A stretch of DNA of 60,688 bases from Salegentibacter echinorum (GTDB lineage Bacteria; Bacteroidota; Bacteroidia; Flavobacteriales; Flavobacteriaceae): assembly GCF_900129445.1 (NCBI RefSeq), contig NZ_FQVT01000017.1:1-60688 (forward strand), given 5' to 3'. Shown piece by piece: positions 8,967 to 53,193 of this stretch; the first letter of the stretch is position 1, and each line of letters opens with the position of its first letter. The notes beneath the pieces were generated by a model. The model had not been told where the DNA came from. It saw nothing but the letters and a program-made list of their open reading frames with translations, and did no database searches. The position numbers and the translations under genes were made by a program.

Positions 8967-11900
8967 TTAATTGGTTTCTACTGAAGAGTTGGTTTTTGCT
9001 TCTTCAGCTTTAATTCTGGATAATTCTTGTTTGGATTCTGTTACAATTTTTGGATAATTGCTGAAGTTTTTGATTACGTTATCCAGAATATAAGTCGCCT
9101 GATAAGCATCACCTAACTTCTCGAAGTTTTTGGCCATTAATACCAGGCCTTTGGCTCCCCAACGCTTATAACCGGAGAAATCTTTGGCGAGAATTTGTAC
9201 CGCAGCATTGGAAGCTTCAAAATTCCCGGCCGAATTCTTAAAATAAGCATCGTAATAAAGCGCCTCTGCAGCCAGTTCGCCTTTTGCTGTTTTTTGTACT
9301 TCGGCATAAGCAGATTTAGCTTTTTGCATATTTCCGGAAGCAAAAGCAGCACGGGCCACGATTAACCTGGCATCATTCCTGGCTTCTTTATCTGCTTCTT
9401 CATTACCTAAAACTTTATCGGCATAAGCAGCAGCTTTTTGGTTTTGCTCCAGTTCTAAATAAGATTTCATGAGGTTACTCTGGGCAAAAACCACATTTTG
9501 TTGTGAACCGGCCTCTTTTTCCAATCTTTCTAAATAAGTTACCGCTTCCCGGTAATTCTCGTTTTCTAAAAGCAATTCCGATAATCTAGAAAGTGACTGC
9601 TCGGTAAATTCATTCTTAGGTTTTTCGGCAACATATCTATAATATTTAGCGGCCTTATGTTTTTCACCTTTTCTAAAATATAACTGTCCTAAATAGAAAT
9701 TGGCATTTATAGCGTGAATTCCATTTGGAAAGCTTCCCAGGTATTTTTCAAATCCGCTAATGGCTTTGTCGTAGTCATTATTAAAATATTGATTTTCGGC
9801 AGCTTCATAACTGGTATCATCAAGATCTGCATCGGTAACTTCAACAAAATCTATATTTTTCACCCAGCGCGCATACTCATCGGTCCTTCCCATATCTACA
9901 TACACCATTCTCGCAGTAGAAACTGCCTGCATGGCCTCTGGCGTATTGGGATAGTCGCTAACTATCTGCTTTAAACGCCTTAAAGCCTGGTCACCGTTAT
10001 TGGAATTGTAATGTATAAGCCCCTGTCTTAACATTGCTTTTGGCACGAACGCACTTTTTGGTACTTCTCTTATCAACCTATCGTAAGTAGAAAGCCCATT
10101 TTGAGTATTATTGGCAGCGATATAAGTGTTTCCTAATTCGTATAAAGCATCGTCCCGATAGGAAGAGCGGGAATATTTATTGATAAATTTTTTAAGTTCT
10201 TCAATTTTGGTATCCCTTCTATCTATAAAACCATAACTCATCGCTTTTTGAAATGCGGCATAATCGTTATTTCCACTTTGGGCGATGGCTTTATTATAAG
10301 CTTCTATCGCCGGCCAGTATTGGCTGCTCACAAAATAGGTGTCTCCCAGGCGCAACAAAGCATCGTTCCTGGTGGCCACTTCTTTACTATCATCTTCAGC
10401 AAAACGCTTAAAGTATTCTATCGCCCTGGCATATTCATTTTTTTTGAAGTAGGCATATCCCAGGTTATAATCGAGGTTTTCCAGTTCGTCTGTACCGCGT
10501 GCAGCACTCATTCCTGCGAATTCTTTATATCCTATTATCGCATCGTCTATTCGGTTAATACTGTATTCACTTTCTGCTTTCCAGAAAGTAGCTTTTGCAG
10601 TGATTTTTTGATCTCGTGGTTCTGAAAGTGCTTTTTCGAAGTTATTGATCGCTTCAACATAATCCCCATCTTCGTAAAGCTGAAGCCCATAATAATAAGC
10701 TACCTTTTGATAGGCCTGTTTATCGCTAAAGTTCCTGTTTTTTTCTAACAGGCGCATCGCTTCTTCGTAGTTCTTTGAGGTAAGGAAAGAATCGATCAAT
10801 AAGCTTTCAACCTCTTGTTTAGCTTCAGAATCGGGATATTTTTCGAGATACGTGATCAAAACCTGCGAGGGACTCTCATAACTATTTCCTATCTCATACC
10901 CGAGCCTTGCATAATTTAAATAAGCATCTTCCTTAATTTTAGCATCAAAATCCATTTCACTGGCATTTTTAAATGCGTTTAAGGCTTGTTGCTTTTGGTT
11001 AGATTTTAGGTAAGACTGCGCTAAATGGTAATAGGCATTTTGTGCGATTGCATTATTTCCATCAATTATTTTATTGAATTCGGCGATTGCTTTTTCAAAA
11101 TCACCTTGTTTATAATAAGCGTAACCCAATTGGTAATAATCGGTGTTGTTCCATCTGCCCCGCTGGCCGTTGTATTCCTTAAGGTATTTAATGGCCTCGT
11201 CATATTTCTCCAGGTTAAAGTAGCTCTCTCCAATAATCTTATTTAATTGAGAACGCTCTAAACGATTGGAACTTTGCAGTTGCTCTTTTCCTAGTGCTAT
11301 GGCTTTTTCAAAATTACCGAGTTTAAAATTCATATCAGCCTGGAAGTAAGAAAGGTCTTCGCTGTATCGGTCGTTAGATTTCACCTCTTCAAAATACTGG
11401 TTGGCTTCCTCATAATCATCACCTTCATAGGCCATATACCCAATGTAATATTTAGCCTGCGAGCCAAATTCCTTAGAATCGCGCACCCTTTCTAAATATT
11501 TACGGGCCTGGTCAAAGCGCTTGGCTTTAAAGTAAGCATAACCATTATTGAAATAGAAACGTTCCCGGTCTTTGCGGCTCATACTGTTTTCGTCAACCTT
11601 ATCGTACCATTTTCTAGACAGGGAATATTTTCCCGTTTTAAAATAGTAATCGGCAACGTCTAGATAAGCCGAATTGGTTTTTGTGCTGGTAGGATAACGG
11701 GTCACAAAGCGCTCCATAAGCTTATCGGCACCCGGTTGATTTAACCTTACTGCCGCATTGGCAATATAGTAAGCACAATCGCCTTCAATTTTTTCATCTT
11801 CGGTTTGTTCTTTTACATCGTCAAACAAATTTTGGGCAGCCAAAAATTGCTGATTATTATATAGCTCCAGGGCACGATTAAACTCGGCGAGATCATTGGT

Positions 11901-50441: not shown

Positions 50442-51233
50442 ATGAACATTTTAGATAAAATAATAGCCGATAAGCACAAGGAACTGGTATTAAAAAAACT
50501 GGTGGTTCCCGTTTCGCAGTTAGAACAAGCTGCTTTATTTGAGCGGGAAAATGTTTCCCTCGCGCAAAAATTAAAAGTCAGCAATACCGGGATTATAGCC
50601 GAGCATAAAAGACGCTCCCCTTCCAAATCGATTATTAATCAAGGCTTGAATGTACAGGATGTTGCAGAGGGTTATGAAAATGCCGGTATTTGCGGAATGT
50701 CTGTGCTAACCGATGGTAAATATTTTGGAGGTTCTTTAGACGATCTCTTATATGCCAGGGCTGCCGTAAAGATGCCACTTTTAAGAAAAGAGTTTGTTAT
50801 TGACGAATATCAAATCCTGGAAGCCAAAGCCAACGGTGCCGATGTAATCCTGTTGATCGCCGCAGTTTTAGATAGGGAACAGATAAAAACGCTTTCAGAA
50901 TTTGCAAAAAACCTGGGATTGGAAGTGTTGCTGGAAGTTCATAACGAAGCAGAATTAGAAAAATCGATTATGCCCAGCTTAGATATGCTTGGGGTTAATA
51001 ATCGCAATTTGAAGACTTTTGAAGTGAGTACCGAAGTAAGTAAAAAACTTTCAGAAAAAATCCCTTCAGAATTTGTAAAAGTTTCTGAAAGCGGTATTAG
51101 TTCGGTTGAAGCTATAAAAGAGCTCAAAGAATTTGGCTATAAAGGTTTTTTAATTGGAGAGAATTTTATGAAAACCGATAATCCCGGCGAGTCTGCAATG
51201 AGTTTTGTAAAGAAATTAGAGATTAAGGTATAA
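50442..51233 (+). CDS. trpC: Indole-3-glycerol phosphate synthase
   Basis: The 263-residue TIM-barrel enzyme closes the indole ring from CdRP. Motifs are GIIAEHKRRSPSKSII (catalytic Lys region), LTDGKYFGGSLDDL, LRKEFVIDEYQI, GVNNRNLKTF and VSESGISSVEAI, all as in stand-alone TrpC. The operon is interrupted downstream by an IS110 element before trpF. Codon use is like the other trp genes. Confidence 0.94.
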   Translation: MNILDKIIADKHKELVLKKLVVPVSQLEQAALFERENVSLAQKLKVSNTGIIAEHKRRSPSKSIINQGLNVQDVAEGYENAGICGMSVLTDGKYFGGSLDDLLYARAAVKMPLLRKEFVIDEYQILEAKANGADVILLIAAVLDREQIKTLSEFAKNLGLEVLLEVHNEAELEKSIMPSLDMLGVNNRNLKTFEVSTEVSKKLSEKIPSEFVKVSESGISSVEAIKELKEFGYKGFLIGENFMKTDNPGESAMSFVKKLEIKV

Positions 51234-51339
51234 GATGTTGATTACAAAGGCCTTTACTAAGTTTATCAAAGTGCTTCGACAGGCTATTAGATTAGCATTC
51301 TATATTTACAAGAAGTTTAATCATATTAAATTTCTGAAA

Positions 51340-51478
51340 AACCAGAGGAGTAAGGTGAACTATTTCGACTCTTAAACTATTAGATTTATGCTGAGCATCA
51401 GTCCTTGCTCCTCTTAGGTTTTGGTACCATTTAGAATGTCAAGCTTAAAGGCTTATTAATAGCGTTAGTACACAAACC
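51340..51478 (+). ncRNA. Candidate IS110 bridge RNA
   Basis: Two loops can be drawn. Loop 1: AACCAGAGGAG-TAAGG (51340-51355) pairs with CCTTGCTCCTCTTAGGTT (51403-51420). Its interior holds TGCTGAG (51389-51395), the reverse complement of the seven target bases CTCAGCA right of the core, and TTCGAC (51364-51369), present left of the core. Loop 2: GGTTTTGGTAC (51417-51427) pairs with GTACACAAACC (51468-51478). Its interior holds TTAGAATG (51431-51438), identical to the element right end before the core (52512-52519), and TAATAG (51457-51462), complementary to the left end CTATTA. A small hairpin AAGC/GCTT separates these two. Established IS110 bridge RNAs have one target-binding and one donor-binding loop; the layout here fits. 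The left target guide match is the weakest. Confidence 0.6.
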
Positions 51479-51515
51479 TATTGGTTATTCAGGTTTTAAT
51501 AGCTAATTCAAAGTT

Positions 51516-52496
51516 ATGAAAAATTTAATTTCAGGCATCGACATTTCAAAAGACACTTTGGACTATTGCTCCTTGAGTACAGAAAAAGTTGAGGTAATTA
51601 CCAGGGGCGTATTGGACAATGAGAAAAAGGCCATTGAAAAGTGGCTCAAAAGTCATGACCAGAAAAATACTGTATTTGCTTTGGAACATACTGGTCATTA
51701 CGGTGCGACCTTGATCAATTGTCTCCATAAAAACGGTTACGTTTTCTATTTGATCAACCCTTTAGAACTTAAAAAGTCACTGGGTATCGATAGGGGTAAA
51801 AGTGATGCAAAAGATGCTTATCGCATTGCAGAATACGCCATTACAAACAAACACAAGCTAGAGCCATATCAGCTGCCTAAAGAAAACCTTGGTAGGCTCA
51901 AAGCACTTATTACAGCGAGAGAGCGCTACGTAAAGATGTCTGTGCAGGTTCAAAACAGCTTGAAGGCCAATGAGATCCTAAACCAATCCATTGATGTTAA
52001 AGTGTTGATCAAAGAAGAAAAGAAACAGTATAAATCCATTCAAAAAAGCATTAGAAACATTGAAAATGAAATGCAAAAAATCATTGAAGCCGACCAGGAA
52101 TTAAAAAGTAGCTACAAGAAGATGACTGCGGTTATTGGCGTAGGTCCGGTCATTGCCATAAAATGTATAGCAGAAACAGATAATTTTCTCAAATTCGATG
52201 ATCCTAGAAAATTCAGCTGTCATTGTGGCCTAGCACCTTTCCCATACCAGTCCGGCACTAGCATAAAAGGTAGAACAAAAACGCATTTTTTAAGAGACAA
52301 ATCCTTAAAAGCCGTGTTGACCAAAAGAGCTATTTCTGCAATTCAACATGATCCTCAATTAAAAACGTACTATAATCGAAAGATCAAAGAAGGAAAGCAT
52401 CATATGAGCGTAATCAATGCAGTTGCCAATAAACTCGTGCTAAGAATATTTGCCGTTGTAAAAAGAGATGAACCTTTTGTGAAATTAGCTGCTTAA
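51516..52496 (+). CDS. IS110-family transposase (DEDD recombinase)
   Basis: The 326-residue protein has the RuvC-like N-terminal domain with acidic residues Asp9 (GIDISKD), Glu57 (ALEHTGHYG), and Asp97 and Asp100 (GKSDAKDAYR), a helical coiled middle, and the C-terminal Transposase_20 domain with VIGVGPVIAIKCIAE and LAPFPYQSGTSIKG, where Ser246 is the likely nucleophile. Both domains are complete, so it is potentially active. In this family the enzyme is guided by an element-encoded bridge RNA to pair donor and target. Confidence 0.93.
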   Translation: MKNLISGIDISKDTLDYCSLSTEKVEVITRGVLDNEKKAIEKWLKSHDQKNTVFALEHTGHYGATLINCLHKNGYVFYLINPLELKKSLGIDRGKSDAKDAYRIAEYAITNKHKLEPYQLPKENLGRLKALITARERYVKMSVQVQNSLKANEILNQSIDVKVLIKEEKKQYKSIQKSIRNIENEMQKIIEADQELKSSYKKMTAVIGVGPVIAIKCIAETDNFLKFDDPRKFSCHCGLAPFPYQSGTSIKGRTKTHFLRDKSLKAVLTKRAISAIQHDPQLKTYYNRKIKEGKHHMSVINAVANKLVLRIFAVVKRDEPFVKLAA

Positions 52497-52545
52497 ATAT
52501 TTGTTTATATCTTAGAATGCTCAGCAGGACAAAAAAATATAACTA

Positions 52546-53193
52546 ATGAAAGAATTAAAATTAAAAATCTGCGGTATGAAGGAAGCAGATAATATTCTGG
52601 AAGTGGCAGAGCTTCAGCCAGATTATATGGGTTTTATTTTTTATGATAAAACGCCCAGAAATTTTGATGCTGAGATGCCGCAAATTCCTTCCGCAGTAAA
52701 AAAAACCGGGGTGTTTGTCAACGCTAAAATAGACGACATCTTAAAAAAGATTAGAAAATACGATCTAAAAGCCCTTCAATTGCACGGAAATGAGAGCCCC
52801 GAGTTTTGTGGTGAACTCAATATTTTACTCAGGGAAGTGAAGATCGAACTTATTAAAGTTTTTTCGATAGGCGAAGATTTTGACTTTAAAGATATAAAAG
52901 CTTATGAAGCCGTGGTCGATTATTTTCTCTTCGACACCAAAGGAAAAAATAAAGGTGGCAATGGTACTGTTTTCAATTGGGAGATCTTAAAAGAATACCC
53001 TTCAGAAAAACCATTTTTTCTAAGCGGCGGAATTGGTTTGGAACAGCTAAGCGCAGTAAAGGAATTGCAGGAACATTTTCGCGCAAAAGGAAAAGAAGAT
53101 GTGCTGTATGCGATAGATGTGAACAGTAAATTTGAAGATAAACCGGGGCTGAAAAATGTGGGGAAATTGAAAAAGTTAGAGGTTAGAGGTTAG
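52546..53193 (+). CDS. trpF: Phosphoribosylanthranilate isomerase
   Basis: The 215-residue TIM-barrel enzyme isomerises PRA to CdRP. It starts LKLKICGMKEADNI, which carries the catalytic Cys, continues YMGFIFYDKTPRNF, then FDTKGKNKGGNGTVFNW with the catalytic Asp and FLSGGIGLEQL. The gene is separated from trpC by the IS110 element, from whose right end it lies 24 bp downstream. Its last codons (LEVRG) are translated from a heptanucleotide GTTAGAG repeat which runs over the stop codon. Confidence 0.93.
   Translation: MKELKLKICGMKEADNILEVAELQPDYMGFIFYDKTPRNFDAEMPQIPSAVKKTGVFVNAKIDDILKKIRKYDLKALQLHGNESPEFCGELNILLREVKIELIKVFSIGEDFDFKDIKAYEAVVDYFLFDTKGKNKGGNGTVFNWEILKEYPSEKPFFLSGGIGLEQLSAVKELQEHFRAKGKEDVLYAIDVNSKFEDKPGLKNVGKLKKLEVRG

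Follow-up and report, generated by a model that had tools for sequence, protein, structure and literature searches.

The subject of this study is an insertion sequence (IS) of the IS110 group in Salegentibacter echinorum, located in a 60,688-nucleotide (nt) stretch of contig NZ_FQVT01000017.1 (the window). Its left non-coding end very probably encodes a bridge RNA acting by the mechanism proposed below, displaced target guide included. A first-pass annotation had put this region forward as a candidate bridge RNA, and that reading was upheld by stem covariation and by the tracking of guides over the element family, positions 51340-51480 being the two-loop part. The case is built by sequence comparison, and draws on stem covariation, family guide tracking, a repeated target, the displaced guide and promoter-like motifs. 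Bridge RNAs guide recombination and can be reprogrammed. That of IS621 has a left target guide flush with the core, a rule that would be loosened by a natural branch apparently tolerant of gaps of varied length. If true, an elastic guide would explain how one element uses a variable repeat family. The survey of 29 element types also widens the evidence for guides and handshake contacts, to which it adds promoter-like motifs resembling those of Bacteroides.

Loop arrangement and guide tracking

The predicted RNA has two stem-closed loops, of which loop 1 would bind the target and loop 2 the donor. The features concerned are as follows.

51275..51280, + strand: left target (LT) TTCGAC in the interrupted repeat resembling a repetitive extragenic palindrome (REP-like), followed by the spacer AGG at 51281-51283
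51284..51285, + strand: core CT at the left junction, common to both junctions, where the element starts
51284..51296, + strand: right donor (RD) CTATTAGATTAGC, including the -7-like box TAGATTAG at 51288-51295
51345..51355, + strand: 5' strand of stem 1, which closes the target-binding loop
51364..51369, + strand: left target guide (LTG) TTCGAC, then TCT at 51370-51372, with CT 51371-51372 in core register by alignment with relatives
51389..51395, + strand: right target guide (RTG) TGCTGAG, complementary to CTCAGCA
51396..51397, + strand: loop-1 handshake bases CA, complementary to the donor TG left of the core
51403..51412, + strand: 3' strand of stem 1
51415..51421, + strand: 5' strand of stem 2, TAGGTTT, which closes the donor-binding loop
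51431..51438, + strand: left donor guide (LDG) TTAGAATG
51457..51462, + strand: right donor guide (RDG) TAATAG, complementary to CTATTA, core included
51463..51464, + strand: loop-2 handshake bases CG, the C complementing the G that adjoins the target core
51474..51480, + strand: 3' strand of stem 2, AAACCTA
52500..52503, + strand: -33-like TTTG in the right end, 20 nt from the -7-like box across the circle junction
52512..52519, + strand: left donor (LD) TTAGAATG, the element right end
52520..52526, + strand: core CT (52520-52521) and right target (RT) CAGCA

Relatives were gathered by protein searches of 397 genomes of the window's family, 15 of its genus, 395 of its order and 395 of its phylum, and further of the family of G546 (88), the genus (7) and family (320) of G703 and the family of G909 (150). 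These genome sets overlap and were partly drawn as samples, and one further contig scan yielded the loci L002 and L003. This left 29 element types fit for use, several insertion sites being known for some of them; they appear to come from Bacteroidota. The window's branch, clade A (support 100/98), comprises the window element, L002 from Wocania ichthyoenteri (76%), L057, L058, L059, L104 and L105; its sister, clade B (support 99/96), comprises L060, L106 and L107. Guide registers and handshake bases were set by hand with the flanks known, and register-free permutations, with one site per type, served as the check independent of register. The left-guide register tests and the loop-2 handshake test covered 25 types, without L057 (contig edge), L007 (left end not found), L062 and L064 (different core); the right-guide tests covered 27, without L105 and L016 (right end not found) and without the odd right flank of one L060 copy. 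The leader alignment held 24 of the 29.

The first-pass annotation had named, as grounds for refutation, loops of homologues that fail to follow the flanks and ends of their own element; over 27 element types they do track them. With the whole leader and no register set, left flanks in sense matched their own leader at 7.81 of 9 positions against 6.57 (0/20,000 permutations), while the reverse-complement control stood at 10706/20,000. Right flanks in antisense gave 0/20,000 with 6- and 7-nt windows, which are nearer the guide length and were tried after the 9-nt result reported below; their same-sense controls were lowish, at 257 (9-nt), 2578 and 410 (7-nt) of 20,000. Within loop 1, left and right tracking each gave 0/20,000, also when clade A was removed, with controls of 4240 and 783/20,000. 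Tracking of the left donor was equally clear (0/20,000; control 6586/20,000), and that of the right donor was weaker, at 27/20,000 (6 nt) and 973/20,000 (7 nt) with controls of 9780 and 6598. In the hand-set register, right guides (27 types) scored 4.68 of 6 on their own target against 1.78, and left guides (19 types outside clade A) scored 5.55 of 7 against 1.94. L058 may be regarded as a natural case of reprogramming, its right guide and flank both reading CTCGAAAT.

The covariation check proposed for homologous leaders was also favourable, as 10 of the 11 pairs of stem 1 are changed on both sides among the 24 aligned leaders. Stem 1 is paired in 92.7% of cells, and its covariation score of 0.750 compares with 0.326 for shuffled alignments and 0.363 for the best slid version, although the structure was predicted from the same alignment used for scoring and is thereby favoured over slid versions. 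Two other measures were not above shuffles (double-change pairs, 119/500; further pair types, 404/500). RNAalifold returned stem 1 only from the 24 leaders, and from the 10 closest also an inner stem and three donor-loop pairs. For stem 2, arms swapped between elements paired less well than own arms (0/20,000), with L057 and L041 forming only 4 pairs. Two successive predicted stem-closed internal loops are thus conserved in the relatives, as in bridge RNA.

The region itself had been described as folding into two stem-loops in the non-coding 5' part of the element, and this fold, at -41.4 kcal/mol, has a z of -2.04, with 5 of 200 shuffles as good. All four matches lie at the places reported, and three are as described: TTCGAC of loop 1 is identical to the target left of the core, TGCTGAG is complementary to CTCAGCA, and the loop-2 TTAGAATG is identical to the element right end. 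The fourth, TAATAG with the left end CTATTA (51284-51289), is a true complement that includes the core CT and does not, as had been stated, begin after it. Among 20,000 shuffled loops the observed longest exact match was reached 631 times for LT, 78 for RT, 132 for LD and 2468 for RD; jointly, both loop-1 matches recurred in 1, both loop-2 matches in 17 and all four in none, and an earlier count with loop 1 shuffled 200,000 times found both target matches in 23. The claim that four such matches are hard to explain by chance therefore stands once the loops are predefined, and fails for the target matches set against the whole leader; since these are ordinary on that scale, the chance argument hinges on the loops being defined first. 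The single window sequence is suggestive and not conclusive, and it is the comparison with relatives that makes the predicted bridge RNA secure.

In IS621, bases beside the right guides are described as pairing with partner DNA after strand exchange (PMC11208158). Counterparts of these handshake bases are recognizable here. In the hand-set register all 27 types have final loop-1 bases that match donor bases 7 and 6, across the donor versions TG, TA and AT. The first handshake base of loop 2 pairs with its own target base 7 at 0.743 against 0.407 (0/50,000; 83/50,000 in a thinned set of 15 types).

The promoter motifs of Bacteroides are given as TAnnTTTG at -7 and TTTG at -33 (PMC2483708). Of the 25 types with both ends, 21 have TTG at right-end positions -19 to -17, three have it one base earlier (L017, L062, L064) and L011 has it further off. 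From left-end position 5, TANNTT[TA]G is present in 16/25 types and in shortened form in two, and 15 of these 16 would lie at a spacing of 20 from TTG in the circle. Integrated copies carry TTG at the corresponding place in 4 of 53 left flanks. Conservation of the left end is also required for donor pairing; TTG lies outside the paired bases. In most types the promoter-like motifs, at near-constant spacing, would meet across the circle junction as a candidate promoter.

The displaced match of the left target guide

The IS621 left guide is described as one stretch, A50-U58 (PMC11208158), and this geometry, contiguous up to and through the core, is absent here, nor is it required of the IS110 group. 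The first-pass annotation had noted a left target match displaced by a few bases; the displacement is real and common to the window's branch, where 9 of 10 clade-A sites are displaced by 1-3 nt in the hand-set register (offset 0 in one site, 1 in three, 2 in five and 3 in one). Offsets in clade B are 0 in 8/11 sites and 1 in 3/11, and at the 29 sites outside both clades offset 0 is the sole best in 26 and tied in three weak ones. Four copies of L059 with an identical 165-nt leader have offset 1 at three sites (TTCGAC-N3-CT) and offset 2 at one (TTCGAC-N4-CT).

The target lies in a repeat, TTCGAC-N3/4-CTCAG, which we call REP-like, a label of our own resting on repetition. The own genome has 23 sites of TTCGAC-N2-6-CTCAG against one for the reversed pattern, and both spacings are present there as uninserted repeats (three spacer bases in 20/23, four in 3/23). 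REPs have been described as targets of several IS families, IS110 included (PMC1525189); a literature search for flavobacterial REPs turned up no paper of relevance, judged by title and abstract. G precedes the core in all 10 clade-A sites, and all seven members have C as the loop-2 handshake base; the two facts may share one cause because the repeat itself has G there.

In our reading, the left guide would skip the bases beside the core, which might be looped out, and the last of those skipped, G, would be read by the loop-2 handshake base. In full, this is a two-piece reading of the target, with a left guide of elastic gap (TTCGAC three or four bases from the core) plus the right guide, in which the core-edge base is checked only after strand exchange by the handshake of the other loop, so that one RNA uses several versions of the repeat; we hold this tentatively, at a little under even chances. 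The mechanism is a known one, and the guide geometry is plausibly new. The motif analysis in PMC11208160, as described there, was confined to bridge RNAs whose nine-base left guide is ungapped, and a branch like clade A could therefore have been missed. The literature searched yielded no account of a left guide with gaps or variable spacing, which is a weak negative given that most subscription papers and bioRxiv fall outside its coverage.

Transcription, circle formation and recombination of the element would proceed as follows. The element would leave as a circle joining its right and left ends, and the joint would restore a promoter that drives transcription of the bridge RNA. Loop 2 would then read the joint as donor and loop 1 the REP-like repeat as target, and the DEDD/serine recombinase would exchange strands at the CT core common to both. 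For the window's branch the proposal is that the left guide reads TTCGAC three or four bases from the core and skips those between, making several repeat versions usable, and that the core-adjacent base, always G in the branch, is matched by the loop-2 handshake base.

Points against, alternatives and known systems

A number of results weigh against the bridge RNA reading or parts of it. Against the whole 165-nt leader (best 9-nt window), 909/2000 and 706/2000 shuffled flanks match as well as the window's own. Right-flank antisense tracking with 9-nt windows over the whole leader is not significant (4039/20,000), and the permutations, one thinned set excepted, ignore kinship among element types. 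Inside clade A the left guide is nearly invariant and the test has no resolving power (5978/20,000), with only L058 differing (CTCGGCTC against CTCGCCTC, one mismatch). Tracking of the right guide there is modest (304/20,000 register-free, 105/20,000 hand-set), and L002, L059 and L104 score higher on three, two and one foreign flanks, respectively, than on their own. The site of L105 is undisplaced within clade A. The second handshake base of loop 2 gives no signal (16813/50,000), and L009 and L080 show no pairing at target base 7. Seven of the 25 types have no -7 match, and the window's own box, TAGATTAG, is one base off TAnnTTTG.

The alternative that survives best also accepts a bridge RNA and holds that the displaced TTCGAC of loop 1 stays unpaired, the branch relying on the right guide and core, with TTCGAC as the leftover of an earlier flush target. 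The near-constancy of the left guide in the branch fits this, as does the repeat, which has TTCGAC anyway, and the right guide of the window matches its flank at 7/7 bases. In other branches, however, the left guide tracks the target, and TTCGAC (or, in L058, CTCGGC with the target CTCGCC) is kept in all seven members while neighbouring loop bases change, whereas a leftover would be expected to drift. We therefore consider it unlikely that the left guide is idle, and favour the displaced but paired guide.

A second possibility is that the protein, or DNA hairpins, would determine insertion into the repeat, and the guides would merely mirror a fixed target. The targeting of REPs by several IS families including IS110 (PMC1525189) and the restriction of clade-A targets to one repeat family would suit it, but related recombinases sit in different targets (AACAAGTT, CTTCAG, CGGTCT, CAGATT and others) with the loop changing alongside, and it appears very improbable. 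It is hardly credible that the leader is instead a regulatory RNA, or a structure controlling translation of the transposase mRNA, with incidental matches to ends and flanks. In favour of this view, the leader lies directly upstream of the gene, the ISPpu9 transposase has been reported to be under small-RNA control (PMC8450116), and the target matches of the window alone do not reach significance against the whole leader. Translation control, however, would not be expected to make each leader match its own flank across the family, and the permutation results speak against it.

The bridge RNA reading places the element close to IS621 (PMC11208160, PMC11208158), with which it has in common, as described in those papers, a DEDD/serine recombinase, a left non-coding end that encodes the (here predicted) RNA, two loops bearing four guides of like order and strand sense, a CT core, handshake bases, promoter motifs (here a candidate promoter) across the circle junction and a repeat as target (REP there, REP-like here). 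It differs in that its recombinase is distant (relatives in the Protein Data Bank are IS621, phmmer E 2e-20, and ISCro4, E 4.9e-17), in having -33/-7 motifs of the Bacteroides kind where IS621 is reported with a sigma70-like promoter, and in the left target guide of its branch, which is variably spaced and not flush with the core. The seekRNA of IS110/IS1111 elements (PMC11187229) follows the same guide principle under another name, and the window element shares the long non-coding region upstream of the gene and the order described there for the IS110 type. ISPpu9, ISPpu10 and ISPa11 likewise insert at a fixed place in a repeat family, although their targets are Pseudomonas REPs and not TTCGAC-N3/4-CTCAG, and the 2006 paper on them (PMC1525189) predates the RNA explanation.

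The element, its setting and its relatives

The window holds one IS110-group element, running from the core CT at 51284-51285 to that at 52520-52521, between trpC (50442-51233) and trpF (52546 onward), the trp names being read from translations. Its genome has one full copy. The remaining features are as follows.

51313..51333, + strand: 5' stem-loop AAGTTTAATCATATTAAATTT, fold -7.2 kcal/mol
51373..51388, + strand: TAAACTATTAGATTTA between LTG and RTG, a possible inner hairpin (TAAA/TTTA) absent from the window minimum-energy fold
51516..52496, + strand: IS110-group recombinase, 326 aa, with D9, E57, D97, D100 and Ser246 at the DEDD and serine motifs

Among nine folded types the 5' hairpin is also clear in L002 (-9.8) and L104 (-8.1) and weaker or lacking in the other six. 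The recombinase matches PF01548 and PF02371 of Pfam, and its sequence motifs place it in the IS110 group, with a RuvC-like DEDD domain and a Tnp domain bearing a catalytic serine. A long non-coding left end of 232 nt from core to start codon and a right end of about 25 nt also fit that group; the IS1111-type layout, with a short left and a long right end, is not seen, the long non-coding end being the left one. An Rfam search of 51200-52700 found nothing above the gathering score, with one sub-threshold bxd_5 match within the gene. An exact empty site was sought in 14 congeners, where the trpC-trpF gaps of 21-328 nt are too short for the element and too divergent to serve. Several of them (L043-L056) have other repeat-like sequences in this gap, e.g., CTGAAACAAGTTCAGGATGACG, replacing the window's repeat.

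The core is CT at both junctions in the window element and in its branch, where both junctions are known. GC or GCT was considered as the core instead and dropped; within the branch GCT stands at either junction, and taking it as core would move all offsets equally, leaving the difference between sites intact. In most types outside clade A (L060, L061, L079 and others) the junctions share C only, with CC at the left and C plus another base at the right.

Left out of the 29 types were L003, L023, L024, L026, L027 and L063 (too diverged, decayed, duplicated, a copy of another type, or with an unrecognizable leader), L078 (5' end missing) and the fragments L005 and L006; L003 was still kept in the tree, in which the L015 protein is truncated at an in-frame stop (181 aa). 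A scan of viral contigs found no relative, and a scan of plasmids gave 2585 records, every one of them under 60% identity, which were not used.

Some further observations were made on individual elements. Two contig ends of the window's own genome (C24; L005 and L006) stop in an IS110-like gene end, at 55-56% over 31-32 residues, and L005 shows a CATAGAATAC right end; these fragments probably belong to a further, unassembled IS110 element of another branch. One copy of L060 has a right flank starting CCTTTAGATTTACAC, which resembles the element's own left end, while five sister copies start CTCAG; it is possibly a junction with another copy or a product of core conversion. In the leader of L024 (positions 2440-2900; genome G406) the bridge RNA unit is duplicated in tandem, with partial decay of the duplicates. 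The congener genome G257 has 18 listed copies of one distant relative at 39% (L008, L018, L020-L022, L028-L040), a 19th match, L041, being of another type; among the nine copies with a readable left flank, the sequence before the core is AACAAGTT in six, AATAAATT in two and CTCCAGATT in one.
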